From: an uncultured Syntrophaceae bacterium
GTDB lineage: Bacteria; Desulfobacterota; Syntrophia; Syntrophales; UBA2185
Length of the DNA: 36,847 bases
Direction of reading: 5' to 3'
Assembly (NCBI GenBank): GCA_903893135.1
Contig: CAITLA010000110.1
Span: forward strand, 1-36,847
Shown: positions 14,993-30,703 of the stretch, one piece after another
Layout: each line of letters starts with the position of its first letter
Position numbering within the stretch: position 1 is the stretch's first letter
Made by a program: the position numbers and the translations under genes
Notes under the pieces: model-generated
What the model saw: only the letters and a program-made list of their open reading frames with translations
Database searches by the model: none
What the model was told of the DNA's origin: nothing

Positions 14993-15958
14993 TTAAAAAC
15001 ACCCCTGTAAATACTTCCTGGCTATTTCTTCGGCCAGAGTAGAAGGATCCGATTCCTTTTTCAGTATTTTTTCGACCATACGGTCGAGTTCACCCGTCTT
15101 GACGAGCATCCCTAACACAGGTTCGAGGATATTGGATCGCAGGGCCTCATTCAGCTCATGCAGCCTCTTGCGCCGCTGCCTGTCACCGATAAGATCACTG
15201 CTTATTAGATATTCATAGTGTTCGTGAACCTTGGAAGATAATGTTTGAATGTCCTGGTCAAACTCTTCCGGCTTAAAGGAATTTCTGATTGTAACGACAG
15301 GCGGCCGCCAACCCCCGGGAGGAATCGGTGACATTTCAATCATGGTCATCAATTCCCGCTGGAGTTTCGCTGCTCCGTCACGATCCGCCTTGTTGACGAC
15401 GAATACGTCTGCAATCTCCATGATTCCTGCCTTGATTGCCTGGATTTCATCTCCCATACCAGGCACAAGGACAACGACTACCGTATGGGCATAGTGGATA
15501 ATCTCCACCTCCTGTTGACCCGTACCTACGGTTTCTACAAATATCACATCTTTCCCCATTGCATCCATAACATGGATGGCATCGCCAACTGCCTTTGAGA
15601 GCCCGCCCAAGGAACCGCGCGTGGCGAGGCTCCGTATGAAGACGCCTATATCCTCGGAATGGCGCTGCATACGGATCCTATCACCGAGCGTTGCTCCTCC
15701 CGTAAAGGGACTTGTCGGATCAACGGCGAGAACCCCTACCGTTCTTTCCTTCTTACGGCTTGTCTCAATGAGACCGTCAACAATAGTGCTCTTCCCTGCT
15801 CCAGGAGACCCGGTAATCCCAACGACCTGGGCCTTGCCCGTATATGGGAAAATATGTTTTATAGTCAGTTTTGCTTCGGGGATACTATCTTCTATGTCTC
15901 TTATAAGGCGGGAGGCAGTCCGAACGTCACCCGCCTTAATCCTCTTTCCTCTCTCCAT
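14993..15958 (-). CDS. meaB: MeaB/ArgK-type GTPase, chaperone of the acyl-CoA mutase
   Basis: MeaB-type G proteins load adenosylcobalamin on acyl-CoA mutases and protect them from inactivation. The 321-residue product shows the P-loop GSPGAGKST near residue 50, the switch segment VDPTSPFTGGATLGDRIRM, the Walker B region FVETVGTGQQE and the NKAD base motif. Length is normal. Its ATG overlaps the stop of the B12-binding subunit gene by one base (TAATG), showing translational coupling. It is the last gene of the large subunit-small subunit-chaperone operon, so its client is the mutase encoded here. Confidence 0.95.
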   Translation of the reverse strand: MERGKRIKAGDVRTASRLIRDIEDSIPEAKLTIKHIFPYTGKAQVVGITGSPGAGKSTIVDGLIETSRKKERTVGVLAVDPTSPFTGGATLGDRIRMQRHSEDIGVFIRSLATRGSLGGLSKAVGDAIHVMDAMGKDVIFVETVGTGQQEVEIIHYAHTVVVVLVPGMGDEIQAIKAGIMEIADVFVVNKADRDGAAKLQRELMTMIEMSPIPPGGWRPPVVTIRNSFKPEEFDQDIQTLSSKVHEHYEYLISSDLIGDRQRRKRLHELNEALRSNILEPVLGMLVKTGELDRMVEKILKKESDPSTLAEEIARKYLQGCF

Positions 15959-16368
15959 TATGTTCTTTCCACAGGTTTTATATTTTTGTTAACCCACGCC
16001 ACGATCGTATCCAGGGTAGTACCCGGCACGAAAATCGCCTTGATGCCTGCGTCATAGAGTTTCTGAAAATCCTGTTCGGGGATGATTCCCCCGCCGATCA
16101 CGGAGATATCACCTGCACCTTTTTCCCTCAATAGATTAACTACCTGGGGAAATAAATACCTGTGCGCTCCCGATAGACAGCTTAGACCTACGACATCCAC
16201 ATCTTCCTGAATCGCCGACGCTGCAATCATCGCCGGTGTCTGATGACACCCCGTATATATTACTTCAAAACCAGCGTCCCGGAAACACCTGGCTAAAATC
16301 CTGGCGCCCCGATCATGACCGTCAAGACCTGGTTTTGCTACCATAACACGAATCTTTCTCTTAGCCAT
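15958..16368 (-). CDS. Acyl-CoA mutase small subunit, B12-binding
   Basis: This 136-residue protein is a stand-alone cobalamin-binding domain. It carries the DGHDRG motif (Asp-x-His-x-x-Gly, with the axial His) at residues ~14-20, the SxLSG loop (SCLSG) and a GGG motif followed by IIPEQDF. It pairs with the upstream large subunit to form the active mutase. The start is taken at the ATG placed 7-8 bases after GGAGGAG; an ATG two codons earlier is possible. It follows the large subunit by 24 bases and overlaps meaB by one base. Confidence 0.93.
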   Translation of the reverse strand: MAKRKIRVMVAKPGLDGHDRGARILARCFRDAGFEVIYTGCHQTPAMIAASAIQEDVDVVGLSCLSGAHRYLFPQVVNLLREKGAGDISVIGGGIIPEQDFQKLYDAGIKAIFVPGTTLDTIVAWVNKNIKPVERT

Positions 16369-16392
16369 TACCATCTCCTCCTTCAATCAGTC

Positions 16393-18075
16393 CTAATAGA
16401 GTCCCGGATCACGGTACTCGCCATAGAGCTCACGATAGACGTCGCACACCTCCTGGATACTGGCCAGATTCTTAACGGCCTCAATACAGTGGGGCATGAC
16501 ATTTTCGCCCTTCTTGCACGCATTCTTAATGTCTTCGAGACTCTTCTTCACTGCCTTATTGTCCCGCTTTCTGCGGACTGCATTCAACCGCGCGATCTGA
16601 TCCTCTTCAACTTTATCATCAATCTCTAAAAGAGGGATGGGTATCTGTTCATCGGTAACATATTTGTTGACGCCGACCATAATCTTTTCACAGGAGTCTA
16701 TCTGCCTCTGGAACTTGTAGGCCGCATCAGCTATCTCCAACTGCGGGAACCCTTTATCTATTGCCGCAACCATACCGCCCATCTCGTCAATCTTATTGAT
16801 GTAGTCCCACGTCTGCTCTTCCATTTCGTTGGTTAAAGCTTCGACGAAGTACGAACCTGCCAACGGATCAACCGTGTTGGCAGCGCCGGTCTCTTCCGCG
16901 ATGATCTGCTGGGTTCGAAGCGCAATCTGCACGGCGGAATCCGACGGCAGGCACATCACCTCGTCAAGGGAATTGGTGTGCAAGGATTGAGTGCCGCCAA
17001 GGACAGCGGCGAGGGCTTGCGTGGCCGTCCGCACGACGTTGTTGTACGGCTGCTGAGCTGTCAGTGAACACCCGGCGGTTTGTGTATGGAAGCGCATCCA
17101 CCACGATCTCGGGTCCTTGGCCTTATAGCGGTCCCGCATTACTTTTGCCCAGATCCTCCGGGCAGCACGCATCTTACAGATCTCCTCGAAGAAATCCACA
17201 TGGGAATTAAAGAAAAAAGAAAACCGCGGAGCAAATTCATCGACATGTAATCCTTTCCGGTTGACGACATCCTCCACATACTCCATGCCATCACGAAGGG
17301 TAAAGGCAAGCTCTTGAACTGCTGTGGAACCGGCTTCCCTGATATGGTACCCGCTGATGCTGATAGTGTTCCACCTGGGAACATACTTCGTCCCGAATTC
17401 AACGGTGTCACTTATGAGTCTGACTGACGGCTCCGGCGGACACATGAACGTCTTCTGTGCGATGAATTCTTTCAGCATGTCATTCTGGATCGTGCCGCCT
17501 ATCTTGGTAAGCGGTATACCCTTGATCTGTGCCGCTGCACAGTACATCGCCCAGAGCACAGTAGCCGGCGGATTGATTGTCATGGACGTGGTAACCTCAT
17601 CCATGGGAATACCGTCCACTAATTGCAGCAAATCCTCGAGGGTATCTATGGCGACCCCGCACTTCCCACACTCACCACGGGCCTTGGGCGAGTCCGAATC
17701 GTAGCCCATAAGAGTTGGAAAATCAAAGGCTGTACTGAGGCCGGTCTGTCCCTCTTTGAGAAGCATGTGCCACCGTTTGTTGGTGTCTGCAGCGCTTCCC
17801 ATGCCAGAAAACATCCTGAACGTCCAGTATCGTCCGCGATAACCCGTCGCCTGATTACCCCGTAAAAATGGAAACTGCCCGGGGTATCCAATATCACGGG
17901 TAAAGTCCATATCCTTTATGTCATCAGGACCATAGAGCCTCTTGATTTCGAGATCTGAAACGGTAGACCATCGTTCCCTCTGGTCAGGAACTTTACTGAC
18001 CACCCTCCGGACCTCATCCTCCCATTTTTTCTTGAGCTCGCTGGATTGACTCAGCACCTCTTTTGCAAAATACAT
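16393..18075 (-). CDS. icmA: Acyl-CoA mutase large subunit, isobutyryl-CoA mutase-like
   Basis: The 560-residue TIM-barrel subunit rearranges a CoA thioester using adenosylcobalamin with the separate B12 subunit. Its numbering matches the Propionibacterium methylmalonyl-CoA mutase exactly: Thr85, Arg87 and Gln197 are kept, but Tyr89 is Phe (RYWTFRMFSG) and Arg207 is Gln (LKEFIAQKT). From published work, Phe and Gln at these places mark isobutyryl-CoA mutase, Tyr and Arg mark methylmalonyl-CoA mutase, and Ile marks 2-hydroxyisobutyryl-CoA mutase. It should therefore interconvert isobutyryl-CoA and butyryl-CoA. The ATG at 18075 has a perfect AAGGAGG site. Specificity is inferred from these residues and from the butyrate-oxidation neighbours; other branched substrates are not excluded. 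Confidence 0.85.
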   Translation of the reverse strand: MYFAKEVLSQSSELKKKWEDEVRRVVSKVPDQRERWSTVSDLEIKRLYGPDDIKDMDFTRDIGYPGQFPFLRGNQATGYRGRYWTFRMFSGMGSAADTNKRWHMLLKEGQTGLSTAFDFPTLMGYDSDSPKARGECGKCGVAIDTLEDLLQLVDGIPMDEVTTSMTINPPATVLWAMYCAAAQIKGIPLTKIGGTIQNDMLKEFIAQKTFMCPPEPSVRLISDTVEFGTKYVPRWNTISISGYHIREAGSTAVQELAFTLRDGMEYVEDVVNRKGLHVDEFAPRFSFFFNSHVDFFEEICKMRAARRIWAKVMRDRYKAKDPRSWWMRFHTQTAGCSLTAQQPYNNVVRTATQALAAVLGGTQSLHTNSLDEVMCLPSDSAVQIALRTQQIIAEETGAANTVDPLAGSYFVEALTNEMEEQTWDYINKIDEMGGMVAAIDKGFPQLEIADAAYKFQRQIDSCEKIMVGVNKYVTDEQIPIPLLEIDDKVEEDQIARLNAVRRKRDNKAVKKSLEDIKNACKKGENVMPHCIEAVKNLASIQEVCDVYRELYGEYRDPGLY

Positions 18076-18234
18076 ATTACCGCCTCCTTCCAATAAATCT
18101 GATATAACTGCTATTATCAATCAGTACTTGACTATCGAATCCGCGGATTTTCTCTCCACCATGCGGGTTTGTCAAATAGAAAAAAGACTACCCGCCCCCT
18201 CTACATTCAATAAATGGACAACTATCCAAAGTTA

Positions 18235-18675: not shown

Positions 18676-19824
18676 TTATCTCATACTCAAAAGTTTTCTT
18701 GAGATAACCACCCTCTGAATCTCGTTCGTCCCTTCATAGATCTGACAGATCTTCGCATCCCGCATGTGTCTTTCGGCCGGATACTCTTTTGTGTAGCCGT
18801 AACCGCCGAATATCTGCACGCCTTCAACGGCAGCCCTCATTGCCACATCGGACGCATAACACTTTGCCATGGCCGATTCTTTCTCAAATTCGAGATGATT
18901 GTCTTCCATCCAGGCGGCACGAAGGAGCAGTAATTCCGCTGCATCGAGCTCCATTGCCATGTCGGCGAGCTTGAACTGGATCGCCTGGAATGTTGATATC
19001 GGTTTGCCGAACTGCACTCTCTCTTTTGCATAAGCGAGGGCGTCTTCCATGGCCGCCCGGCCGATACCGCAAGCCTGGGAACCGATACCGATTCTCCCCG
19101 CGTCAAGCCCCATCATCATCTGCTTAAAACCCTGTCCCGGCTTACCCAGGAGGTTTGCCGCCGGTATCTCAGCATCCTCGAAGACAAGCTCAGCCGTTCC
19201 CGAAGCAAGAATTCCCATTTTCTCCTCGATCTTTCCTACTTTGAAACCCGGGGTGTTCTTCATATCCACGATGAGATTGATGACCCCTTTGTATCCTAAC
19301 GCGGGATCGGTCGTGACAGCTAAAACGCAGTAATGCGCCACATTACCGTTCGTTATGAATATTTTGGTCCCGTTAACGATATATTTGTCACCTTTCAATA
19401 CGGCGCGACACTTCAATGCGGCAGCATCCGAACCGGCGCTTGGCTCTGTCAATCCATAGCACCCCTCAACCTGCCCGCTCGCTACAGGCGGTAGATACTT
19501 TTTCTTCTGCTCTTCCGTCCCGAAGGCTAATATCGGGTACCCGTAAAGGGAATTGTTGACCGATACAATGACACCGCAGCTTGCACATGCCTTGGAAATT
19601 TCAATCATGCAGAGAACATATGTTACTACATCCATGCCGGCCCCGCCGTATTCCTGAGGTACGGCAACCCCCATGATTCCCATCTCGCCCAGTTTGCGGC
19701 AGATCTCTTCCGGATGCCTGTGGGTCTTGTCCAGCTCTGCTGCTATGGGTTTAATCTCCTGCTCTGCAAACTTCTTCACCATATCTCTCACGTCCCGCTG
19801 ATCATCTGTTAAACCGAAATTCAT
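18676..19824 (-). CDS. Acyl-CoA dehydrogenase (butyryl-CoA dehydrogenase-like)
   Basis: This FAD enzyme oxidises a short-chain acyl-CoA to the enoyl-CoA, passing electrons to electron-transfer flavoprotein. The 382-residue product has the family length. It shows the FAD-contact segment YGLTEPSAGSDAAA, the ITNGNVAHY strand and the catalytic Glu in CQIYEGTNEIQR near the C-terminus, the position used by short-chain dehydrogenases. The start has a GGGGG site. It is the last gene of the thiolase-dehydrogenase-hydratase set, 53 bases after the hydratase. No etfAB genes are in the window. Confidence 0.93.
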   Translation of the reverse strand: MNFGLTDDQRDVRDMVKKFAEQEIKPIAAELDKTHRHPEEICRKLGEMGIMGVAVPQEYGGAGMDVVTYVLCMIEISKACASCGVIVSVNNSLYGYPILAFGTEEQKKKYLPPVASGQVEGCYGLTEPSAGSDAAALKCRAVLKGDKYIVNGTKIFITNGNVAHYCVLAVTTDPALGYKGVINLIVDMKNTPGFKVGKIEEKMGILASGTAELVFEDAEIPAANLLGKPGQGFKQMMMGLDAGRIGIGSQACGIGRAAMEDALAYAKERVQFGKPISTFQAIQFKLADMAMELDAAELLLLRAAWMEDNHLEFEKESAMAKCYASDVAMRAAVEGVQIFGGYGYTKEYPAERHMRDAKICQIYEGTNEIQRVVISRKLLSMR

Positions 19825-19877: not shown

Positions 19878-20660
19878 TCAACTTCCAGTGTAAACAGGTT
19901 TTCTCTTTTCGATGAAGGCCTTCATTCCTTCTTTCTGATCATCCGTGCTGAAGCACTGGGCGCAACATTCCATTTCCAGCCTGATCCCGTTATCAAGCGC
20001 AAGATCATAACCATAATTGATCGAATGCTTGGCCATTTTTAGGGCGAATCCAGGCATACCGACCAGTTTCCGCGCGAATTTTTTCGTTTCCGGGAGAAGC
20101 TGATCGAGGGGAAATACCCTGTTTACGAGACCAATATCGAAAGCCCTTTTCGCATCGACCTGCTCGCCACCCATGATAAGCTCCTTGGCCCTCCCCATTC
20201 CTATTAAACGCGAAAGCCTCTGAGTTCCTCCCCATCCCGGTATCAATCCGATCAGTATTTCCGGCTGGCCGAAACGGGCTGTTTCCGATGCAAATCTCAT
20301 ATCACAGGCCATGGAAATTTCCGTGCCGCCGCCCAAAGCGAAACCGTTCACGGCAGCGATGGAGGGCTTGGGCAGCGTTTCAATCAATCGCAGCGTCTCA
20401 TTACCCAACTCCATAAAGGCAAGGGCCTCTTTAGGCCGCAGGTTCTGCATCTCTGATATGTCAGCGCCTGCTACAAAGGCCTTTTCTCCTGACCCGGTGA
20501 GAATGAGAACCTTTATGGCGTCATCATTCTTACAGAGGGTAGCCGCATCCATAAGCTCCTTCATCGTTTCCGTATTCATCGCATTTAAGGCCTTGGGCCT
20601 GTTAAACGTTATTGTAGCGACACCATCCTCAACTGCAAACAAGAGGTTCTTGAATTCCAT
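19878..20660 (-). CDS. Enoyl-CoA hydratase (crotonase)
   Basis: It adds water to crotonyl-CoA, giving 3-hydroxybutyryl-CoA. The ATG at 20660 gives 260 residues, the crotonase norm; the frame can be extended 36 codons upstream, but those residues are not family-like and an AAGGGGG site favours the inner start. Motifs: oxyanion-hole AGADI near residue 64, ALGGGTEISMACD with the first catalytic Glu, and the second Glu in FGQPEILIGLIPGWGGTQRL (given here in pieces FGQPE and GWGGTQRL). It sits between the dehydrogenases of the same pathway. Confidence 0.93.
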   Translation of the reverse strand: MEFKNLLFAVEDGVATITFNRPKALNAMNTETMKELMDAATLCKNDDAIKVLILTGSGEKAFVAGADISEMQNLRPKEALAFMELGNETLRLIETLPKPSIAAVNGFALGGGTEISMACDMRFASETARFGQPEILIGLIPGWGGTQRLSRLIGMGRAKELIMGGEQVDAKRAFDIGLVNRVFPLDQLLPETKKFARKLVGMPGFALKMAKHSINYGYDLALDNGIRLEMECCAQCFSTDDQKEGMKAFIEKRKPVYTGS

Positions 20661-20857
20661 CCGATGTACCCCCTTTCCACTTTCTTTTAATGGTTCGGAA
20701 AAGCTTTCCGAGTGCATATTATTTTTTTCGTCAACCTTTGGACATCTTATCACGAGGCTTGAAGCCATGATCTCGGGCTGCGCTCCCTGCCGAAGCGAGC
20801 TTTACAATTGTCGAAAAAATATTCTCGTCACGGAAGAACATCTTTCGAATGCAAGCA

Positions 20858-21715
20858 TTACTTGCTGTAATCGTAGAATCCTTTTCCCGTCTTTCTCCCC
20901 ATGTAACCCGCATCCACGTATTTCTTAAGGAGCGGACAGGGACGGTACTTGGAATCGCCAAATCCCTTGTAAAGAACGTCCATTATAGCCCAGCATGTAT
21001 CGAGACCAATCAGGTCAGCCAACGCCAGAGGACCCATGGGGTGATTCATGCCCAATACCATAATGTCATCAATGGCCTTTGGCGTGCCCACTCCTTCCAT
21101 CAGGGTATAAACTGCCTCATTGATCATGGGCATAAGGATCCTGTTCGCTATAAATCCCGGAAAGTCATTGCATTCCACGGGAACCTTCCCAAACTGCTTG
21201 GACAGCGCTTCCGTCGTGTTGTACGTCTCCTGAGAGGTAGCCAAACCCCTGATGATCTCCACGAGTCTCATCACGGGAACGGGGTTCATAAAATGCATCC
21301 CGATGACTAAGGCAGGCCTCTTTGTTGCACCGGCTATCCTCGTAATGGGAATAGAGGAAGTATTCGTGGCAAGGATTACCCCGGGCTTGCAGACTTCATC
21401 AAGTTTTCTGAATATCCCAAGTTTGAGATCTTCTCGTTCTATGGCTGCCTCCACAACAAAATCGGCATCCTTCATGTCTTCCAGCTTCGTGCTCTTCTTG
21501 ATGCGGCCCATGATCTCTTTTTTCTGGTCAGCCGTCAGCTTTTCCTTGGCAACAAGGCGGTCCAGGTTTTTTGAAATCGTATCGTACCCCTTGTCGACAA
21601 ACTGGTCTGCAATGTCATTCATGATTACATTCAGTCCCCCTGTGCTTGCAGCAACCTGAGCTATGCCGTTGCCCATCTGGCCGGCTCCGATAACACCGAA
21701 TGTCTTAACTGCCAT
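20858..21715 (-). CDS. 3-hydroxybutyryl-CoA dehydrogenase
   Basis: This NAD enzyme oxidises 3-hydroxybutyryl-CoA to acetoacetyl-CoA. The 285-residue product has the dinucleotide motif [14 protein letters not shown] at the N-terminus, the [11 protein letters not shown] strand, the catalytic His in [11 protein letters not shown] and the Glu of its charge pair further on, then the C-terminal domain with [17 protein letters not shown] (in pieces). A GTG one codon earlier is possible; the GGGAGG site fits the ATG. It lies between the thiolase and hydratase genes, as expected for butyrate beta-oxidation. Confidence 0.95.
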
Positions 21716-21863
21716 CACTACCTTCCTCCCGTCATTTTTTATTCTCAGAACATCAGCTTCCCATTAAGGCAAGTGAAAGGTCTTTTCCCGTACCATTTCA
21801 TCGGAGATAAGCGAGACTATGTAGTCGGAAAAAAGAACTTGAGCCCCAGGGAAAGTCAATCGT

Positions 21864-23219
21864 TTACACTTTGATCAGCATCGCGTCACCCTGAGCATGG
21901 CCCGAGCAGATTCCGCATATCCCGATCCCGCCGCCTCTTCGCCGCAGTTCATAGGCAAGAGTCATGACAATCCTCGCGCCCGTCGCACCTATAGGGTGAC
22001 CATATGCGATGGCGCTTCCATTCACATTGACCCTCTTATACATATCTTCCTTGCTCATGCCTAAGATATTGCGGGCACTAACCAAGACAACGGCAGCAAA
22101 GGCTTCATTGATTTCCAGTAGATCTATTTTATCGAGAGTCATGTTATTCTGTTCGAGAAGTTTCTTGATTGCGAGTCCCGGCACAGTCGCAATATCCTTC
22201 GGTGGCTGGGAAACCTCGGCGTAATCGAGTATGGTAAACAGGGGTTTTATGCCCAGTTTGTCGGCCATTTCCCTGCTCATTACCAGACAGACATCTCCGC
22301 CGTCATTGACACCCGGTGCATTACCGGCCGTAACACTTCCGGGGCCTCCGGTAACCGGGCTTTTATGATTGAAGACCGGCGGCAATTTGGCTAACCCGTC
22401 TATAGTCGTCTCCGGCCTTGGTCCTTCGTCTTTGTCGAAGATGACGACCTTTTTCCCCTGCTTCACCTCGACGGGAAATATCTCGTCGTCCAGTTTTCCC
22501 GTCTTCATTGCCTCAACTGCTGCCAGCTGGGAGCGAAGAGCCCATTCATCCTGATCCTGCCGTGTAACTCCGAATTCATCGCCAACCTCAGAACCGTGAA
22601 CGGCCATGTGCCGGTTATAAAATGCGTCCCAGAGCCCATCGTAAACAACTAAATCAAGGACTGGCCGATTCGGGAGTCCCATCCTTGCCCCCCACCTCAT
22701 CTCAGGCAGAGCATACGGGCCATTGCTCATGCTTTCCTGGCCGCCCGCTACGCAAATCTCGGCCCTTCCCAGTTGAATCATCTGGACTGCAAGGTCGATC
22801 GGCTTAATACCTGAAGAACATACCTTATTGATCGTAATGGAGGGAATGGATTCTGGGAGACCGGCCAGGATAGTTGCCTGCCTGCTGGGGATTTGTCCAC
22901 ACCCCGCAGGAACTACCTGCCCCATGAAAACGTAATCCACATCGGATGGTTTGACCTTTCCATTCGTTCGCCTGATTACTTCTTTTATCGCCAAGGCTCC
23001 AAGTTCGGGGGCAGTGAAGTCTTTCAGCGCTCCCCCGAATCTGCCATACGGCGTCCGGCATGCTTCAACAACGACAACTTCTCTGACGCTCTTAAATTGA
23101 CTTTTTATTTTCCGTCCCATGGTTGAGAAATCTGGCTTTCTCTCACCGAACTTTGAGATTGGCGCATGAGCATACATCTCCGCCCTGGTCTTTTCCAGCT
23201 TCTGCGGCACTTTTTCCAT
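21864..23219 (-). CDS. Acetyl-CoA C-acetyltransferase (thiolase) with N-terminal extension
   Basis: It splits acetoacetyl-CoA with CoA into two acetyl-CoA. The thiolase fold starts only near residue 45 (VREVVVVEACRTPYG). The active Cys lies in NKVCSSG, the His-contact region in NEAFAA and YGHPIGATGARI, and the second Cys in GICSGHAQGDA, where many homologues have GGG. The product is 451 residues, some 50 longer than usual, because of a charged N-terminal leader. The ATG at 23219 has GGGGG at 6 bases; 23231 is an alternative. Confidence 0.9.
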   Translation of the reverse strand: MEKVPQKLEKTRAEMYAHAPISKFGERKPDFSTMGRKIKSQFKSVREVVVVEACRTPYGRFGGALKDFTAPELGALAIKEVIRRTNGKVKPSDVDYVFMGQVVPAGCGQIPSRQATILAGLPESIPSITINKVCSSGIKPIDLAVQMIQLGRAEICVAGGQESMSNGPYALPEMRWGARMGLPNRPVLDLVVYDGLWDAFYNRHMAVHGSEVGDEFGVTRQDQDEWALRSQLAAVEAMKTGKLDDEIFPVEVKQGKKVVIFDKDEGPRPETTIDGLAKLPPVFNHKSPVTGGPGSVTAGNAPGVNDGGDVCLVMSREMADKLGIKPLFTILDYAEVSQPPKDIATVPGLAIKKLLEQNNMTLDKIDLLEINEAFAAVVLVSARNILGMSKEDMYKRVNVNGSAIAYGHPIGATGARIVMTLAYELRRRGGGIGICGICSGHAQGDAMLIKV

Positions 23220-23514
23220 TACTACCCCCATTTTTTAGAGCTTTGCAAAATAGAACTCTGTCTTCGGAAAAAGCGAGAATATACCATGATTGCTTTCGAA
23301 GACAATTTTCAAGTCAACTGTTGAAACTGAACGGTCGAAAGTTCTCTTCCGTTGTTATTTTACGAGCAATATAGCTTCAGCAGACGCAGTCCATAAATAG
23401 CGAAACCTTCCGCCCGGCTATGCAAGCTGAAGATTGCGGCTACTTTGACGACTCAAAAAGGCCTCAACTGCCCGTATACAAAAACCCTTGAGCGTCAGAC
23501 ACCCCCAGATCCGT

Positions 23515-24681
23515 CTATGTCGATTCTTTGAGGCTGTTAAGAATGTCTCTGGCAATTATCATCCGCTGGATCTGGTTGGTCCCTTCATAGATCAACGTAA
23601 TCCGGACGTCTCTCGCATAGCGTTCGACTGGGAATTCATTGGTATATCCGTATCCACCGAGCATCTGCACGGCATTGAAGCAGGCCCTGTCAGCGGCTTC
23701 GGTCGCAAAATACTTCGCCATAGATGCTGCTCTTGCAAAGGGCTTGACCATCTCTTTTTTAAACGCGGCGTTCATAAGGAGGAGCCTCGCTGCCTCCAGC
23801 TCCGTATAGGATTCTGCAACCATCCACTGGATAGCCTGGAAATTTGTTATGGACTGATCGAACTGCTTTCTCTCCATTGCATATCGTGTGGCATAATCCA
23901 TGGCAGCAAGTCCGACACCTAAAGCGAGAGATCCAATGCCTATGCGTCCACCTGCGAGCTCTCCCGTGGCTGTCTTGAAGCCGCCATTCAGTTTCCCCAT
24001 AAGGGCTGATTTTGGTATCCGGCAGTCTTCAAAGATCAGTTCATTCGTTGAAGAAGCGTGCTGTCCCATTTTGTGCTCTTCCCGTCCAATCTTAAGACCG
24101 GGGACGCCGTTTTCAACGAGGAATGTGCTGATGCCGCTGCCTTTCTTAGCCTTCTTATCGGTTACTGCCCAAACGACAAACACGCCCGCGTATTCAGCGC
24201 TGGTAATGAACATCTTTGATCCATTGAGAACCCATTGATCGCCGTCCAGAACAGCAGAGGCCTGGAGCGCCGCGGCATCGGAACCCGCCACGGTTTCAGT
24301 CAAACCAAACCCGCCGGCAGGGTATTCACCGGAACAGATCTTCGGTATGTAAGCCATTTTCTGTTCCTCAGAGCCGATTGCCTGAATCACCTCACAGACC
24401 AGATTGTTGACGGACATGGTTACTGCCGTCGAGGCGCAGGCCCTGGCGATTTCCGTAACCGCCAGACTGAAAGACACGACACCTGCTTCAGAGCCTCCAT
24501 ATTGACTCTTCACATTGATGCCCATCAAGCCAAGGCTGGCGAGTTTCTTCAAATTCTTTAAGAAGGTGTCACGATCGCCTACCTGGTCGAGCCGCGCCGC
24601 TGCCGGTTCCAGTTCTGTCCTCGCGAAGCGCCGAGCTGTGTCCTGAATGATTGTTTGTTCTTCTGTCAGATCTAAATTCAG
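23515..24681 (-). CDS. Second acyl-CoA dehydrogenase, CTG start
   Basis: A second FAD acyl-CoA dehydrogenase of 388 residues. The obvious family N-terminus NLDLTEEQTIIQ is reached only if translation starts at a CTG placed 7 bases after a perfect AGGAGG, since an in-frame TAG lies 5 codons before it and no ATG, GTG or TTG falls between. Motifs: FGLTETVAGSDAAAL, MFITSAEYAGVF and the catalytic Glu in TLIYEGTNQIQRM. It differs clearly from the other dehydrogenase here, so the two may serve different acyl chains or branched versus straight butyryl-CoA. It follows the CoA-transferase genes. Confidence 0.9.
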   Translation of the reverse strand: MNLDLTEEQTIIQDTARRFARTELEPAAARLDQVGDRDTFLKNLKKLASLGLMGINVKSQYGGSEAGVVSFSLAVTEIARACASTAVTMSVNNLVCEVIQAIGSEEQKMAYIPKICSGEYPAGGFGLTETVAGSDAAALQASAVLDGDQWVLNGSKMFITSAEYAGVFVVWAVTDKKAKKGSGISTFLVENGVPGLKIGREEHKMGQHASSTNELIFEDCRIPKSALMGKLNGGFKTATGELAGGRIGIGSLALGVGLAAMDYATRYAMERKQFDQSITNFQAIQWMVAESYTELEAARLLLMNAAFKKEMVKPFARAASMAKYFATEAADRACFNAVQMLGGYGYTNEFPVERYARDVRITLIYEGTNQIQRMIIARDILNSLKEST

Positions 24682-24757: not shown

Positions 24758-25654
24758 CTAACCAATAATTGACTTGATCGCGGCGGGATATTCCGTTTTC
24801 GCCGGCAGGAAGATCAATTCCGGATCAACGAACTCCCTGAGGACAAAGAGCTCCTTGTAAGTCGGGATTGGAGTTTCACCTTTAACTTTTGAAACATTCA
24901 GGTCAAATCCGCAATTCTCTTTGATCTTCTCCACGGTGATACCGGGGTGGCAGGTTTCCAGGTAGATGATTCCCTTGTCATCAAACCGGTATACGCCCAT
25001 ATTCGTTACCACACCACAGGGGCCGCAATCCGCATAGGGCGTCCCTTTCCAGACCTCCTTCTTCGGTTTCCACTCCCGTTTCTTGAAATCCCAGCACCAC
25101 CAGCCGGGCGTTGTGGTATAATCATTTCTCTCCAGGAATCTCCTCTTTTCCTGAAGGATGATGTAAGCAACTCTTTTCGACATGGTTCCTATGTCGGAAT
25201 TCCCCCCGGAACCTGTGAAGCGGTGCACTGGGGCATAGTAATCACCGATGGATGTAACATTTACGCCGCCGTATTTATCGATAGCGGCACCTCCCAGAAA
25301 CCCCAAGGTCACAAAACCCTGCTGCAAATAATAACCAAAGGTATCCACCAATCCACCCAGGGTGGAACACAAATTGGCCGCCCTCTGGTCGCTCACAGAC
25401 ATGGGCACATGCATGGTCTTTCCGTCGCATATCCCCGATTCGTATATTAACACCGCATTCGGTGCATTCAGCATGTTGGCAGCCATAATCCCCACCATGG
25501 GAAGCCCTGTACCGGCAAAGACGACATCATCGTTCAGGACCTCGTGAGCAATAGCGATAGCCATCAATTCCGGCAGGATAAATTCACCCGCCTTGGCTTT
25601 CTCACTGGGTATCTTATCGATCAACTCCATCAATTGTTCCATTGTTTTAGCCAT
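24758..25654 (-). CDS. CoA-transferase subunit B, glutaconate-CoA-transferase-like
   Basis: With the neighbouring subunit A it moves CoA between acids, letting the cell activate a short-chain acid without ATP. The product from the ATG at 25654 is 298 residues. It carries the family's ESG motif (IYESGICDGK), whose Glu is the nucleophile that forms the acyl-CoA intermediate, and the GGAAIDKYGGVN segment. Start choice: GGGGGG lies 7 bases before this ATG; earlier starts would overlap subunit A. The gene is 19 bases after subunit A and shares its operon. The true acid substrate is unknown. Confidence 0.9.
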   Translation of the reverse strand: MAKTMEQLMELIDKIPSEKAKAGEFILPELMAIAIAHEVLNDDVVFAGTGLPMVGIMAANMLNAPNAVLIYESGICDGKTMHVPMSVSDQRAANLCSTLGGLVDTFGYYLQQGFVTLGFLGGAAIDKYGGVNVTSIGDYYAPVHRFTGSGGNSDIGTMSKRVAYIILQEKRRFLERNDYTTTPGWWCWDFKKREWKPKKEVWKGTPYADCGPCGVVTNMGVYRFDDKGIIYLETCHPGITVEKIKENCGFDLNVSKVKGETPIPTYKELFVLREFVDPELIFLPAKTEYPAAIKSIIG

Positions 25655-25673
25655 TTTCATTCCCCCCTTTCCT

Positions 25674-26729
25674 TTAATAGCCACTGCGAGCGACGGATAA
25701 AGGCATCTTCATCCTCGGTGCCGGGTTCTTTCCTCGCATCATCTTGGTGCTGTATCCAGTGGTGCTGTCCGCTCTGAGAGACAACAATTTCTTTGCACCA
25801 AGCTTAACAATAAATTCTTCCCAGCTCTTCGGGCCAAAAACCCATTCATCGATCCATTTTTTCAAATCCTCCACGTTTCTTGATGCTTTATCCATCTCCC
25901 TCATAAAGGGCACGTCATAGTCATAATAGAAAGGGACACCGCTCGGGAAGGCTCCCCAGGGCACTTCCACAATGGCGTCAACAGTAAAGAAGGGAATCTG
26001 GTTGGCTTCCGGATCCTTCCTCATCTCTCCTTCGGGAACTACCTCTTCGGCCGTGATTACGACCTTGTCGCATGCAAAGGCCATTTCTTTATCGATCGTC
26101 CCGATACCTCGCCACCTCGCCGTCCCCTTGTCGCCTACCTTAGATACGTGAATGACTGCCAGTTCGGGCCTAGCTGCGGGAAGCAGGACGACCTCTCCAT
26201 CACCAAAGAAGGGTTCCTCAATCTGGATGAACTTTTTCTTTGCAATTCTCGGATTTTTACCATTCCTCAGACCCGCTTTTCCCAGTGCATCATAGTCCGG
26301 ATTATAGAGGTCTGATCCCAGCGGCGCATAATAGGGAATGAACGGCGCCCCAATTGCCCCGGCAAGGAATCTCATGGCCATGGCACCGTGAGAATAGTCC
26401 TCAAGAATTATCTTTCCTGCCTTGTAAATCCTTTCCATGTTGATGTCGAGTTTTCCCGCCATCTCCCCCCAGCCCATCCAGTCGGTTTCATAGATCTTAA
26501 TAGCACCGACGGTATTGAGGAGCCAGGTGCAGCAACTGCCATGCCTGTCGATAACATGCAGGTCCTTGTATTTTTGTCTTACCACTTCCCAGGCAAAGGC
26601 CATCGGGTTTCTGTTGAATCCCGTAAACCCGCTGAAGGCAATCTGGATCCCGTTATGCATGTATTTCTTGACCGCTTCTTCAAGCGTCATAATTGCAGCT
26701 TTCTTAGCTTTCCCGCGAATTCTCGCCAT
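25674..26729 (-). CDS. CoA-transferase subunit A, glutaconate-CoA-transferase-like
   Basis: A 351-residue subunit A of the glutaconate/3-oxoacid CoA-transferase superfamily (family I). It starts with the IAFSGFTGFNRNPMAF glycine loop near residue 30, has an AGAIGAPFIPYYAPLGSDL segment (given as AGAIGAPF and YYAPLGSDL), and the long central domain typical of GctA. The ATG has a GGAGG site. It lies just before subunit B and after a membrane protein, with a perfect hairpin between. Likely role: CoA transfer onto isobutyrate or butyrate, inferred only from the neighbouring beta-oxidation genes. Confidence 0.9.
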   Translation of the reverse strand: MARIRGKAKKAAIMTLEEAVKKYMHNGIQIAFSGFTGFNRNPMAFAWEVVRQKYKDLHVIDRHGSCCTWLLNTVGAIKIYETDWMGWGEMAGKLDINMERIYKAGKIILEDYSHGAMAMRFLAGAIGAPFIPYYAPLGSDLYNPDYDALGKAGLRNGKNPRIAKKKFIQIEEPFFGDGEVVLLPAARPELAVIHVSKVGDKGTARWRGIGTIDKEMAFACDKVVITAEEVVPEGEMRKDPEANQIPFFTVDAIVEVPWGAFPSGVPFYYDYDVPFMREMDKASRNVEDLKKWIDEWVFGPKSWEEFIVKLGAKKLLSLRADSTTGYSTKMMRGKNPAPRMKMPLSVARSGY

Positions 26730-26868: not shown

Positions 26869-28158
26869 TTAATGATGCGCATCATGAACGTAGAAAGGCC
26901 ACTTGTGGAAGAACCACTCGTTCCAGAGAAGCGGAATGATCCACCAGAAGTTCCATATAAGGGATTCGCCATTGATAAACCTTTCGGCTAAACCATGCTC
27001 CATGTGATGATTGCCCAGTCCCCAGTGACCGAAGTTGAGGTGGTAGAAGCACACGTACAGAACCGCTGTTAAAATAAGCACACCTACTGTCCTGAACCAG
27101 AAGCCTCCCCAGGAATCTACATTCTTCGCCGGAGACATATCGTCAAAGTAGTGGTGCCACTGGAGGAAGGGAATCAGGGTCATACCGGCAATCTCCGCTG
27201 AATGTATCCACAGGAAGCGCGCGGGGTTTCCCTTGTCCCCTGCAGGCAGATGTTTAATAACATCCTCCATGTCCGCCCATAGCGGAATGAGTTGCAGACA
27301 AATCAGGGCTATAATATATCCAGCCACAACGGTTATACAAAAAGAAATTAGACCTTTCCAGGGCTGGGGAAGCTTGATGAGTGTCCAAGGTTTCATGCGC
27401 CAGACGTTGGGCGTCATGAAGAGGATGATGATCATCCACTCCCACCAACCAAAGACCCAATACACATGGGGAGTGCCACCGGACAGACCGACCCACCAGG
27501 GAGTGTTGAATCCAATAGAATTACCGAACATCTTGCCCCAGACCAAACCAAAGAAAGGAACGATAAGAACAACGTAGAAGAACAGGGTGAGGAGACTGCA
27601 CCAACCGATCTCGGCAAGACCCGCTGCGGGCTGCTCCAGGTTGCTCGGACGGATGGGCCATTTACCAAAGTAGATCGTCACAAACGGATACGAGAAGAAC
27701 CCGATCAGAACAAATCCCACGATTGCACTCTGCGCGAGGTGCGCTTTTTGCATTACCTCCAAGGTAATTATTTTCCCGTCGGGCAACACTATCGCCCCTG
27801 CGGCTGCCAGTGCATTAATATTGGATTGGCTCAAGAAATTGAACCCCATGCCAAAAACCCGATAAAAAATGACTTCAATAACGAACCATGTGAGGGCTGC
27901 GTTCACGATTGTCATCGTAACGCCTCTGGCGGCTGGCGACATTTTCTGAAAGGGCCAGTCACCCAAAAACATGTGCTGCCATAACCCGACCAAAATCATC
28001 ACTGCGAGTATCATAACCATCGGGTAAGGAAACCAACCTACGGGCCCACGAGGATCGCTCAAAATATACCAGGTAACCCAAGCGATCAAGAAAAAAACTA
28101 TGGTAGTAACGATGCCTGTCATGGGTTGACCCCAACGAGGCCGTAATTCTCCTGCCAT
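26869..28158 (-). CDS. Trp/His-rich polytopic membrane protein of unknown function
   Basis: The 429-residue protein has about nine or ten hydrophobic segments (near residues 15-33, 44-64, 80-103, 140-165, 183-208, 232-253, 270-294, 315-335, 353-374, 400-418). It is unusually rich in Trp (about 30) and in His near membrane boundaries: a WIHSAEIAG helix leading to LQWHHYFDD, then YHLNFGHWGLGNHHMEHG, and a C-terminus ending HDAHH. I do not recognise it as any named transporter. It follows the PAS-LuxR gene and precedes the CoA-transferase genes on the same strand, with an AGGAGG site. Plausible roles are short-chain acid uptake or membrane electron transfer, both inferred. Confidence 0.85.
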   Translation of the reverse strand: MAGELRPRWGQPMTGIVTTIVFFLIAWVTWYILSDPRGPVGWFPYPMVMILAVMILVGLWQHMFLGDWPFQKMSPAARGVTMTIVNAALTWFVIEVIFYRVFGMGFNFLSQSNINALAAAGAIVLPDGKIITLEVMQKAHLAQSAIVGFVLIGFFSYPFVTIYFGKWPIRPSNLEQPAAGLAEIGWCSLLTLFFYVVLIVPFFGLVWGKMFGNSIGFNTPWWVGLSGGTPHVYWVFGWWEWMIIILFMTPNVWRMKPWTLIKLPQPWKGLISFCITVVAGYIIALICLQLIPLWADMEDVIKHLPAGDKGNPARFLWIHSAEIAGMTLIPFLQWHHYFDDMSPAKNVDSWGGFWFRTVGVLILTAVLYVCFYHLNFGHWGLGNHHMEHGLAERFINGESLIWNFWWIIPLLWNEWFFHKWPFYVHDAHH

Positions 28159-28314
28159 AATGTCATCCTCCTTTTTTGATTCCAATTAAAGTTGTTAAAA
28201 TCTTCCAGAATTCGTTTACCGAATCATAACTCTAATCTAACTTGATGATCACCTCCTCCCTAATATTCAATAACACGTTTATAATTTCCCCGTGACGACT
28301 GCCTAAATCCTCGC

Positions 28315-28585: not shown

Positions 28586-30703
28586 TTATGAAGATAGATA
28601 GGAACGAAGATTATGCTTTTTGGTTAAATTGAGTTTGCGCCGGATATGATAACGGTATACATTGACTGCGCTTTCAGAGACGTTAAGAAGTGCCGCTATT
28701 TCTTTAGTTGTTTTTTCCTCCTTTATAAGATTGGCGATCTGCACCTCCCTGTTGGTAAGATTCAAGTACTTGACTGACAATTTTTGCGCAAAGGGTGATA
28801 CGATTTCTTTTAGATTTGATTCGAGGACGTTGACATAGGATGAGCCCTTCAGATCTACGCGGCTTTTCAATTTATCAATATATGGCAGTATGAGCAGCTT
28901 CACGTTTGACAGCACCTTTTGTTCGAGCTCATTTCTATCCTCTTCTCTCTGCTTGAGCAGGACCCTTAAGGCCGCATTGAGGTCTTCAAGCTCGTTAGTC
29001 TTTGCCTCAAGCTCAACCTCTCTTTTCTCCAGCATTTCCTCTGCCTGCTTGCGCTCCGTAATATCCCGGATCGATTCGATGGCGCCCACTATGCGCCCTT
29101 TGCTATCGTAAAGGGGACTTGCCTTTGCCCAGAGGAAGGCTCTATTATCCTTCAAAGCAGGAACCCATGTCTCCACGATCAATTGGTCCTCCTCCTTTTT
29201 AAAAACAGAATAATAATTCCGCTCAGTTTTCTTGTCCGGTTTCAAGACAAGATCAATCAAGATAGGCCTTCGTACACCATAAAATGGCAAGGCATACTCA
29301 AAGTCACCTTTTCCCACCATGTCGTCAGCTTTAACTCCCGTCATTTCCTCTATGGCGCGATTCCATGCAATCACGTTCCCCTTCCGGTTAATCGCAAGTG
29401 TCGCGTCCGGCAAGAAATCAATAATATCCGACAACCGCCTCTCTGATTCCCTTAGCGCCTCTTCCGCCTGCTTGCGCTTGGTAATGTCTTTCGAAACCAC
29501 CGTTACGGCTATGGTCCTCCCCTCAGGGTCCTTAACGGGACTCAATGACCTGAGAAAGTATTTATCATCTCTTTCACTCTTGTGTTCATGCTGGATTGCC
29601 TGGCCCATTTTAAAAATACGGCTGATGATTTCCATGAATTCTCTGGCATCCTCTTCAGAATGGAATTCATCATATGATTTTCCTTCCACATCCCCTAAGG
29701 AAATGCCAAGCCGCGACAGGAATCCTTCGTTCATGAACAGATACCTGCAATCCTTGTCAACGAGATACATCACGTCAGTACTGGATGCGAGGGATCGGTA
29801 TTTTTCCTCTGATTCCTGAAGCATTCTTTCCGCCTCTTTGCGCTCCGTAATGTCCCTGATCGACTCAATGGCGCCCACGATATCGCCTTTGCTATCATAA
29901 AGGGGACTGGCCTTTGCCCAGAGGAAGGCCTTTTTCCACTTCAAAAATGGCACCCATGTCTCTATAATAAGGATATCTTTATTCTTTTCGAGAATAGAAT
30001 AATAACTCCGTTCAATTTTCTTATCCGGCTTCAGTACCAGATCAGCCAAGATGGGCCTTCGTATGCCGTAAAAGGGCAACGCATATTCGTAGTCACCTTT
30101 TCCTAATATGTCGGCGGCTTTGACACCCGTCATTTCCTCTATGGCATGATTCCACGCAATAACCTTCCCTTTTAAGTCAATTGCAAGTGTCGCATCCGGC
30201 AGAAAATCAATAATATCCGCTAACCGTCTCTCTGATTCTCTTAGCGCCTCCTCCACCCTCCTGCGCTCGGTGACATCTATGGCATTTCCCAGGATTGCCG
30301 GCTTTCCGTTGTATTGGATGGGGGAGACTATCTGAATCACATACCTGATTGCGCCCTGTTTGGTTACCATTCTGAATTCATATGGCGCATAGTCTATGCC
30401 CTGGAGCATCTCGCGGGCTTTCTTCTTTGCCATTTCCTTATCGTCGGGATGAACTATAATGCCGGAATCCTTGCCTACGAGCTCTTCTGCTGTATAATCG
30501 GCATAAGCAATAGCACTTGTATTAATATAGCGAAATTTTCCATCCTGCACAATGAAGGCGGCAGCAAAGGATTTCTCCGTCAGGCTTCTGAAAAGCTGCT
30601 CACTCTCGAGCAGCTTTACATCCGCTTTCTGGCGCCCTGAAGATCTTCTGTCCGCCAATGATGTCTTCTGATTTGGACTCTCATTGGTTAATTTCTTGGA
30701 CAT
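28586..30703 (-). CDS. Multi-PAS sensor regulator with LuxR-type DNA-binding domain
   Basis: A 705-residue one-component regulator. Residues ~34-148, 155-288, 298-412 and 418-551 are four PAS/PAC units, each ending with a DITERK-type boundary. A charged coiled coil (~553-600) follows, then a LuxR-type helix-turn-helix (~647-700) with LTNREVQIANLIKEEKTTKEIA (given as LTNREVQIA and TTKEIAALLNVSESAVNVY). No histidine-kinase or receiver domain is present, so it likely senses a small molecule or redox state and binds DNA directly. PAS units 2 and 4 are near copies. It is transcribed toward the CoA-transferase/beta-oxidation genes and probably controls them. Confidence 0.9.
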   Translation of the reverse strand: MSKKLTNESPNQKTSLADRRSSGRQKADVKLLESEQLFRSLTEKSFAAAFIVQDGKFRYINTSAIAYADYTAEELVGKDSGIIVHPDDKEMAKKKAREMLQGIDYAPYEFRMVTKQGAIRYVIQIVSPIQYNGKPAILGNAIDVTERRRVEEALRESERRLADIIDFLPDATLAIDLKGKVIAWNHAIEEMTGVKAADILGKGDYEYALPFYGIRRPILADLVLKPDKKIERSYYSILEKNKDILIIETWVPFLKWKKAFLWAKASPLYDSKGDIVGAIESIRDITERKEAERMLQESEEKYRSLASSTDVMYLVDKDCRYLFMNEGFLSRLGISLGDVEGKSYDEFHSEEDAREFMEIISRIFKMGQAIQHEHKSERDDKYFLRSLSPVKDPEGRTIAVTVVSKDITKRKQAEEALRESERRLSDIIDFLPDATLAINRKGNVIAWNRAIEEMTGVKADDMVGKGDFEYALPFYGVRRPILIDLVLKPDKKTERNYYSVFKKEEDQLIVETWVPALKDNRAFLWAKASPLYDSKGRIVGAIESIRDITERKQAEEMLEKREVELEAKTNELEDLNAALRVLLKQREEDRNELEQKVLSNVKLLILPYIDKLKSRVDLKGSSYVNVLESNLKEIVSPFAQKLSVKYLNLTNREVQIANLIKEEKTTKEIAALLNVSESAVNVYRYHIRRKLNLTKKHNLRSYLSS
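29051..29461 (-). repeat. Internal duplication within the PAS regulator, copy B
   Basis: Residues ~415-551 repeat residues ~152-288 at an offset of 263 residues (789 bases; matching copy A at 29840-30250). Both protein and DNA are closely similar, for example the LPDATLAI, EYALPFYG and FLWAKASPLYDSKG stretches. The intervening PAS 3 is a different type. Confidence 0.8.
29840..30250 (-). repeat. Internal duplication within the PAS regulator, copy A
   Basis: The partner of the copy at 29051-29461. The duplicated unit is a PAS domain with an unusually long insertion between WN..IEEMTGV and the FLWAKASPL strand; a Lys-Lys-x-Glu-Arg loop lies in it. The DNA similarity indicates a fairly recent duplication or ongoing gene conversion. 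Confidence 0.8.

Follow-up and report, generated by a model that had tools for sequence, protein, structure and literature searches.

Butyrate and isobutyrate arise as intermediates when fat and protein are turned into methane and sulfide and, to our knowledge, little has been established about the proteins by which syntrophic and sulfate-reducing bacteria take them up. The stretch of DNA analysed here, called the window (36,847 nucleotides, contig CAITLA010000110.1 of assembly GCA_903893135.1, from an uncultured Syntrophaceae bacterium), contains a complete C4 acyl-CoA oxidation set and, at the head of it, a gene for a membrane protein rich in tryptophan and histidine (Table 1). What does this protein do? 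An earlier sequence-only reading called its family unrecognised and proposed a pathway-specific role, either in substrate uptake or in moving electrons from acyl-CoA oxidation to the membrane. We consider, with moderate confidence, that it imports short-chain fatty acids of the butyrate/isobutyrate class across the cytoplasmic membrane and belongs to a family unnamed in the libraries searched.

Table 1 Features of the gene cluster in the window, in minus-strand order
Feature	Position	Strand	Basis or remark
PAS-repeat protein, C-terminal LuxR-type HTH	28586..30703	(-)	Pfam PAS + GerE
AGGAGG ribosome-binding site	28167..28172	(-)	8 nt before ATG; read directly from the sequence
Trp-/His-rich ten-helix membrane protein	26869..28158	(-)	429 aa; no Pfam/NCBIfam/PDB match
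Type I CoA-transferase subunit A	25674..26729	(-)	PF01144
Type I CoA-transferase subunit B	24758..25684	(-)	PF01144
Acyl-CoA dehydrogenase	23515..24552	(-)	Pfam
Thiolase, acetyl-CoA C-acetyltransferase type	21864..23231	(-)	Pfam + NCBIfam
3-Hydroxybutyryl-CoA dehydrogenase	20858..21718	(-)	NF004474 above cut-off
Short-chain enoyl-CoA hydratase	19878..20768	(-)	Pfam + NCBIfam
Second acyl-CoA dehydrogenase	18676..19824	(-)	Pfam
B12-dependent acyl-CoA mutase large subunit	16393..18120	(-)	Phe/Gln pair as in isobutyryl-CoA mutase
B12-binding small subunit of mutase	15958..16386	(-)	TIGR00640 above cut-off
MeaB-like G3E GTPase (mutase chaperone)	14993..15958	(-)	N-terminal sequence with P-loop

The membrane protein and its homologues

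The mechanically called open reading frame of the membrane protein reaches a TTG at 28185, beyond the ATG start. The protein contains 31 tryptophans, close to the 30 or so counted earlier (7.2 %, compared to a mean of 1.8 % over 711 called genes from related loci), and 16 histidines, and the three histidine clusters pointed out before, QWHHYF, GNHHMEHG and the C-terminal HDAHH, were all located in it.

The description of the family as unrecognised stood up to both sequence and fold searches. The protein matched no family in Pfam or NCBIfam, and nothing was found when the sequences of the PDB were searched with a profile of 54 homologues. No homologue was found in the plasmid collection, and a search of the literature library found no paper on the protein. 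A relationship to Abhydrolase_9_N was considered and rejected: a weak Pfam signal was seen in 12 of the 54 members (best 5.9e-5), it was missing from the window protein and six other members when these were rescanned at E 0.01, and we took it for a chance resemblance between membrane proteins.

One scan of species genomes, sensitive to close relatives only, yielded homologues at 80 loci with roughly 58-89 % identity; the records of these loci belong to Desulfobacterota/Deltaproteobacteria or name no phylum. A clear orthologue was present in 16 of 395 genomes drawn from the phylum, and the distribution is thus patchy. In one close relative (L071, L086 and L089; G002:C179) the gene is split into two overlapping open reading frames, which points to a frameshift or a fault in the assembly.

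Six histidines (H62, H231, H319, H335, H336 and H418) are invariant in all 54 aligned homologues, as are the acidic residues D35, D67, D339, D340, D348, E240, E322 and E398 and the basic residues R37, R254, R314, K166, K256 and K419; strictly conserved aromatic residues complete this set. Other histidines are kept partly (H385 in 53, H425 in 46 and H384 in 34 of the 54 homologues) or weakly (H388 in 23, H428 in 22 and H429 in 8). Of the clusters to which the sequence-only reading had given weight, QWHHYF is therefore fully conserved and GNHHMEHG in part, and HDAHH is mostly not conserved past its first histidine. The conserved histidines may bind haem or a metal.

Predicted structure

The AlphaFold2 model, built from the homologue alignment (pLDDT 86.7, pTM 0.86), has ten transmembrane helices, in agreement with the approximately ten hydrophobic segments seen earlier. 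The predicted helices span residues 13-33, 47-65, 75-105, 141-164, 178-211 (with a break at 199), 233-251, 267-293, 313-337, 350-373 and 399-415. Lysine and arginine favour the even loops over the other loops (11.6 compared to 5.9 per 100 residues), and thus both the N- and the C-terminus are probably cytoplasmic.

In the family consensus a QPxxG motif stands at the start of helices 1, 3, 5 and 7 (units 1-4), and helices 2, 4, 6 and 10 are each followed by a WP-type motif. The placement of these motifs points to a putative arrangement of five tandem two-helix units. Comparison of the units by hhalign gave weak similarity (best pair E 6e-4), so that the five-unit description rests mainly on the motif positions and the order of the helices. 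When the model was used in Foldseek, all PDB matches had E 0.33 or above and all viral ones E 0.2 or above, and the TM-scores were low; 'no known fold' is thus a statement relative to the PDB and viral libraries searched, and it depends on a predicted model.

The window cluster and its mutase

As had been noted, the gene lies between a regulator and a CoA-transferase: the PAS-LuxR protein is encoded upstream, and the type I CoA-transferase pair downstream. The PAS-LuxR protein is likely to regulate the cluster, and its gene is retained upstream of the membrane gene in two related loci (L003 and L004). It has 705 amino acids, whereas its counterpart in the closely related L003 has 968; in tblastn the two halves of the latter align to one stretch, so that the two proteins differ in PAS repeat number. 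Scans for sigma-54 and sigma-70 promoters gave hits no more frequent than expected by chance. The Pfam match of the MeaB-like protein was obtained on its homologue L007:5637-6602.

When the mutase of the window was aligned with solved mutases, it had phenylalanine at the position of the 1req tyrosine (Phe in entry 5req) and glutamine at the position of the 1req arginine. We take this Phe/Gln pair to be the mark of isobutyryl-CoA mutase, as opposed to the Tyr/Arg pair of methylmalonyl-CoA mutase. The pair was found in all 26 mutases encoded near the membrane gene, split or fused, and a propionate/methylmalonyl reading was rejected on this ground; automatic naming of the genes at 14993-18120 as methylmalonyl-CoA mutase would thus mislead. 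One of the fused mutases scores above the NCBIfam cut-off for IcmF. Related mutases of non-carboxylated acyl-CoAs act on 2-hydroxyisobutyryl-CoA or pivalyl-CoA; the solved sequence closest to the window mutase is 4r3u, a 2-hydroxyisobutyryl-CoA mutase, which has isoleucine where the window mutase has phenylalanine. A gene cluster with isobutyryl-CoA mutase that serves the syntrophic use of isobutyrate, and is related to a group present in sulfate reducers, has been described (PMC5017805).

Gene neighbourhood across relatives

The neighbourhood was compared over 79 loci on codon-based gene calls; genes were labelled after representatives that Pfam or NCBIfam had identified. Within 3 kb of the membrane gene a CoA-activating enzyme was encoded at 51 of the 79 loci, a beta-oxidation enzyme at 21 and mutase-related genes at 19, and 20 loci, partly on short contigs, had none of the expected enzymes. 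CoA-activating enzymes made up 80 of the 321 genes nearer than 3 kb, compared to 8 of the 268 beyond 6 kb; the loci are phylogenetically related, so that a Fisher value is indicative only and p-values overstate independence.

The activating enzymes belong to three unrelated classes, type I CoA-transferases, pairs of CaiB-type CoA-transferases and AMP-ligases, and the class switches at least 11 times among the 48 tips of the gene tree. The constant element is thus the membrane protein together with acid activation, and not any one enzyme. The layouts vary accordingly: thiolase, membrane protein, acyl-CoA dehydrogenase and the two CoA-transferase subunits follow each other in L051, L056 and L078, the membrane gene stands between two AMP-ligase genes in L045 and L046, and in L008 and L012 it is divergent from the mutase genes and backed by CaiB pairs. 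This repeated pairing with activating enzymes of three classes, for a protein that matches no known family, supports the proposal of a pathway-specific role in substrate uptake.

At the level of whole genomes, a mutase-family gene lies within about 21 kb of the membrane gene in at least 10 of the 16 genomes that have the latter, within 3 kb in seven (G310, G223, G404, G422, G268, G312 and G352) and further away in G000, G144 and G198; this count is at family level, the Phe/Gln pair being established in it for the window's own mutase only. Fused IcmF was present in 6 of the 16 genomes, compared to 58 of 395 overall (one-sided Fisher 0.02, again indicative only).

A distant subfamily

The window group has a distant subfamily, whose homology extends over 384 columns (profile probability 99.5 %, E 9e-23, about 24 % identity) and of which the source genome itself encodes a paralogue (G000:C65). 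The subfamily has no Pfam name. Its structure model had a pLDDT of 58 and was therefore left out of the fold search. The two groups have H319, E322 and the WP and QP motifs in common: all 21 distant sequences have H319, and E322 and R356 are each present in 19. Other residues stand in place of H62, H231, H335 and H336 and, in nearly every case, of H385 and H418; the histidine set is thus mostly specific to the acid-linked group. Judged from these alignments, H319/E322 would be the core common to both groups, and the group-specific histidines would be in line with a site for substrate or protons.

The gene context of the distant subfamily is quite different. In most loci viewed the neighbours are Tat-signal proteins of the metallo-beta-lactamase fold (e.g. 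L002, L087, L088, L090 and L107-L114), in some they are CobW-type GTPase fusions, and in the source genome a FUR regulator adjoins the gene. ExbB/ExbD-like proteins were seen near it in two loci, by eye only. The distant membrane protein and a Tat-signal metallo-beta-lactamase-fold protein form a recurring cassette (L123:6520-8886, on G000:C65, and L115, L116, L173, L179 and L180), to which several loci add a protein of about 85 amino acids and one of about 300 amino acids. The latter, like the distant membrane protein, has no Pfam name, and in L115 it is fused to a CobW GTPase. The frame at L179:11267-13999 is a run of masked bases and not a gene.

These neighbours raise the question of whether the window protein is instead a metal- or cobalamin-linked membrane protein, supplying cofactor to the B12-dependent mutase as the distant subfamily would serve another metal system. 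The CobW-type GTPases, FUR regulator and Tat-exported metallo-hydrolases beside the distant relatives agree with this, as do the retention of H319/E322 in both groups and the mutase and MeaB genes that often adjoin the membrane gene. However, CoA-activating enzymes are near the gene at far more loci than mutase-related genes (51 compared to 19 of 79), and L051, L056 and L078 have a plain thiolase, acyl-CoA dehydrogenase and CoA-transferase setting. We regard a cofactor role as unlikely.

Proposed role

The repeated siting of the gene beside enzymes of C4-acid activation and oxidation makes an entry door for such acids the most likely role of the protein. As it matches no known transporter family, this function rests on gene context; the predicted ten-helix architecture, which is typical of permeases, was also counted in favour of an importer. 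The acid may bind at the conserved cluster of H62, H335, H336, D339 and D340 near the inner face, with a second putative binding site at H319/E322, nearer the outer face. It would be carried inwards, probably together with a proton, and the adjoining CoA-transferase or ligase would then trap it as acyl-CoA. Against an importer speak the AtoE-type short-chain fatty acid transporter also encoded in the source genome, the fact that neutral C4 acids can cross membranes unaided, the 20 of 79 loci with none of the expected enzymes within 3 kb, and the different context of the distant subfamily.

The other half of the earlier proposal, that the protein moves electrons, has been weakened. In this explanation the conserved histidines would bind haem, for example by pairing H319 and H335/H336 of helix 8 with ligands from helices 2 and 6, and electrons would pass from acyl-CoA dehydrogenase/ETF to quinone. 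Invariant histidines do occur at both sides of the membrane, a single predicted helix carries H319 and H335 at a spacing of 16 residues, and acyl-CoA dehydrogenase genes adjoin the membrane gene in several loci. However, EtfA, EtfB and an EMO-like protein (CCG, Fer4 and NarI-gamma domains) are encoded side by side elsewhere in the source genome, and in Syntrophus aciditrophicus EMO reduces methylmenaquinone with electrons taken from ETF, as the known syntroph route (PMC8805022), so that a second dedicated carrier is not needed. An electron carrier would not explain the many loci with only acyl-CoA ligases alongside, such as the ligase-membrane protein-ligase loci, which have no acyl-CoA dehydrogenase nearby. 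In addition, the sequences of the membrane protein and of the genome's EMO-like protein are not similar, and H319 alone of the conserved histidines persists in the distant relatives. An electron carrier is thus improbable. A protein that exports the acid or the product acetate, or a channel that lets them pass in both directions, would have the same gene context, and sequence does not reveal the direction of transport. It seems equally improbable, as in most loci the partner is the CoA-transferase or ligase of the initial, activating step and not one of the acetate-forming enzymes looked for in a non-systematic survey.

If the importer is placed in the context of both groups, a wider picture can be drawn, which we put forward only tentatively: a new transporter superfamily with a fold absent from the PDB and made of five tandem two-helix units. 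In syntrophs and sulfate reducers one of its branches would import C4 fatty acids, and the sister of this branch would serve a system with a Tat-exported metallo-hydrolase and a CobW-type GTPase. With a candidate that is family-wide and has named invariant residues, the uptake of C4 acids becomes directly testable. The membrane protein, having no fold match in the PDB, would be a useful structure target, and its gene could mark the use of C4 acids in metagenomes.

Comparison with known systems

The EMO/DUF224 ETF:methylmenaquinone oxidoreductase is likewise a membrane protein and serves acyl-CoA oxidation in syntrophs (PMC8805022). The EMO-like protein of the source genome has the CCG, Fer4 and NarI-gamma domains, whereas the window protein has none of the three. 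Di-haem cytochrome b proteins have axial histidines paired across helices at haem distance; the conserved histidines of the window protein, mapped on its predicted helices, would be candidates for such pairs. Among the transporters of short acids, the ActP-type sodium:solute symporters (PF00474) gave no Pfam match, and hhalign against the SSF protein of the genome gave E 0.35. The six-helix SatP/YaaH acetate permeases (PF01184) gave no profile match, and no member of that family was found in the source genome.

AtoE-type transporters (SCFA_trans, PF02667) take up C4 acids, and their genes lie beside those of CoA-transferases. The membrane protein would do the same job and has the CoA-transferase setting in common with them, but no sequence similarity: the Pfam scan was empty, and hhalign against the AtoE-type protein of the genome gave E 0.48. 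SLAC1/TehA (PF03595) is the tellurite-resistance/dicarboxylate channel family, which has five helical hairpins around a central pore and includes carboxylate carriers. Pfam showed no similarity to it, hhalign against four Desulfobacterota members gave E 0.35, and TehA was missing among the 50 best Foldseek PDB rows; however, the ten predicted helices of the membrane protein, with their QPxxG periodicity, can be read as five hairpins as well.
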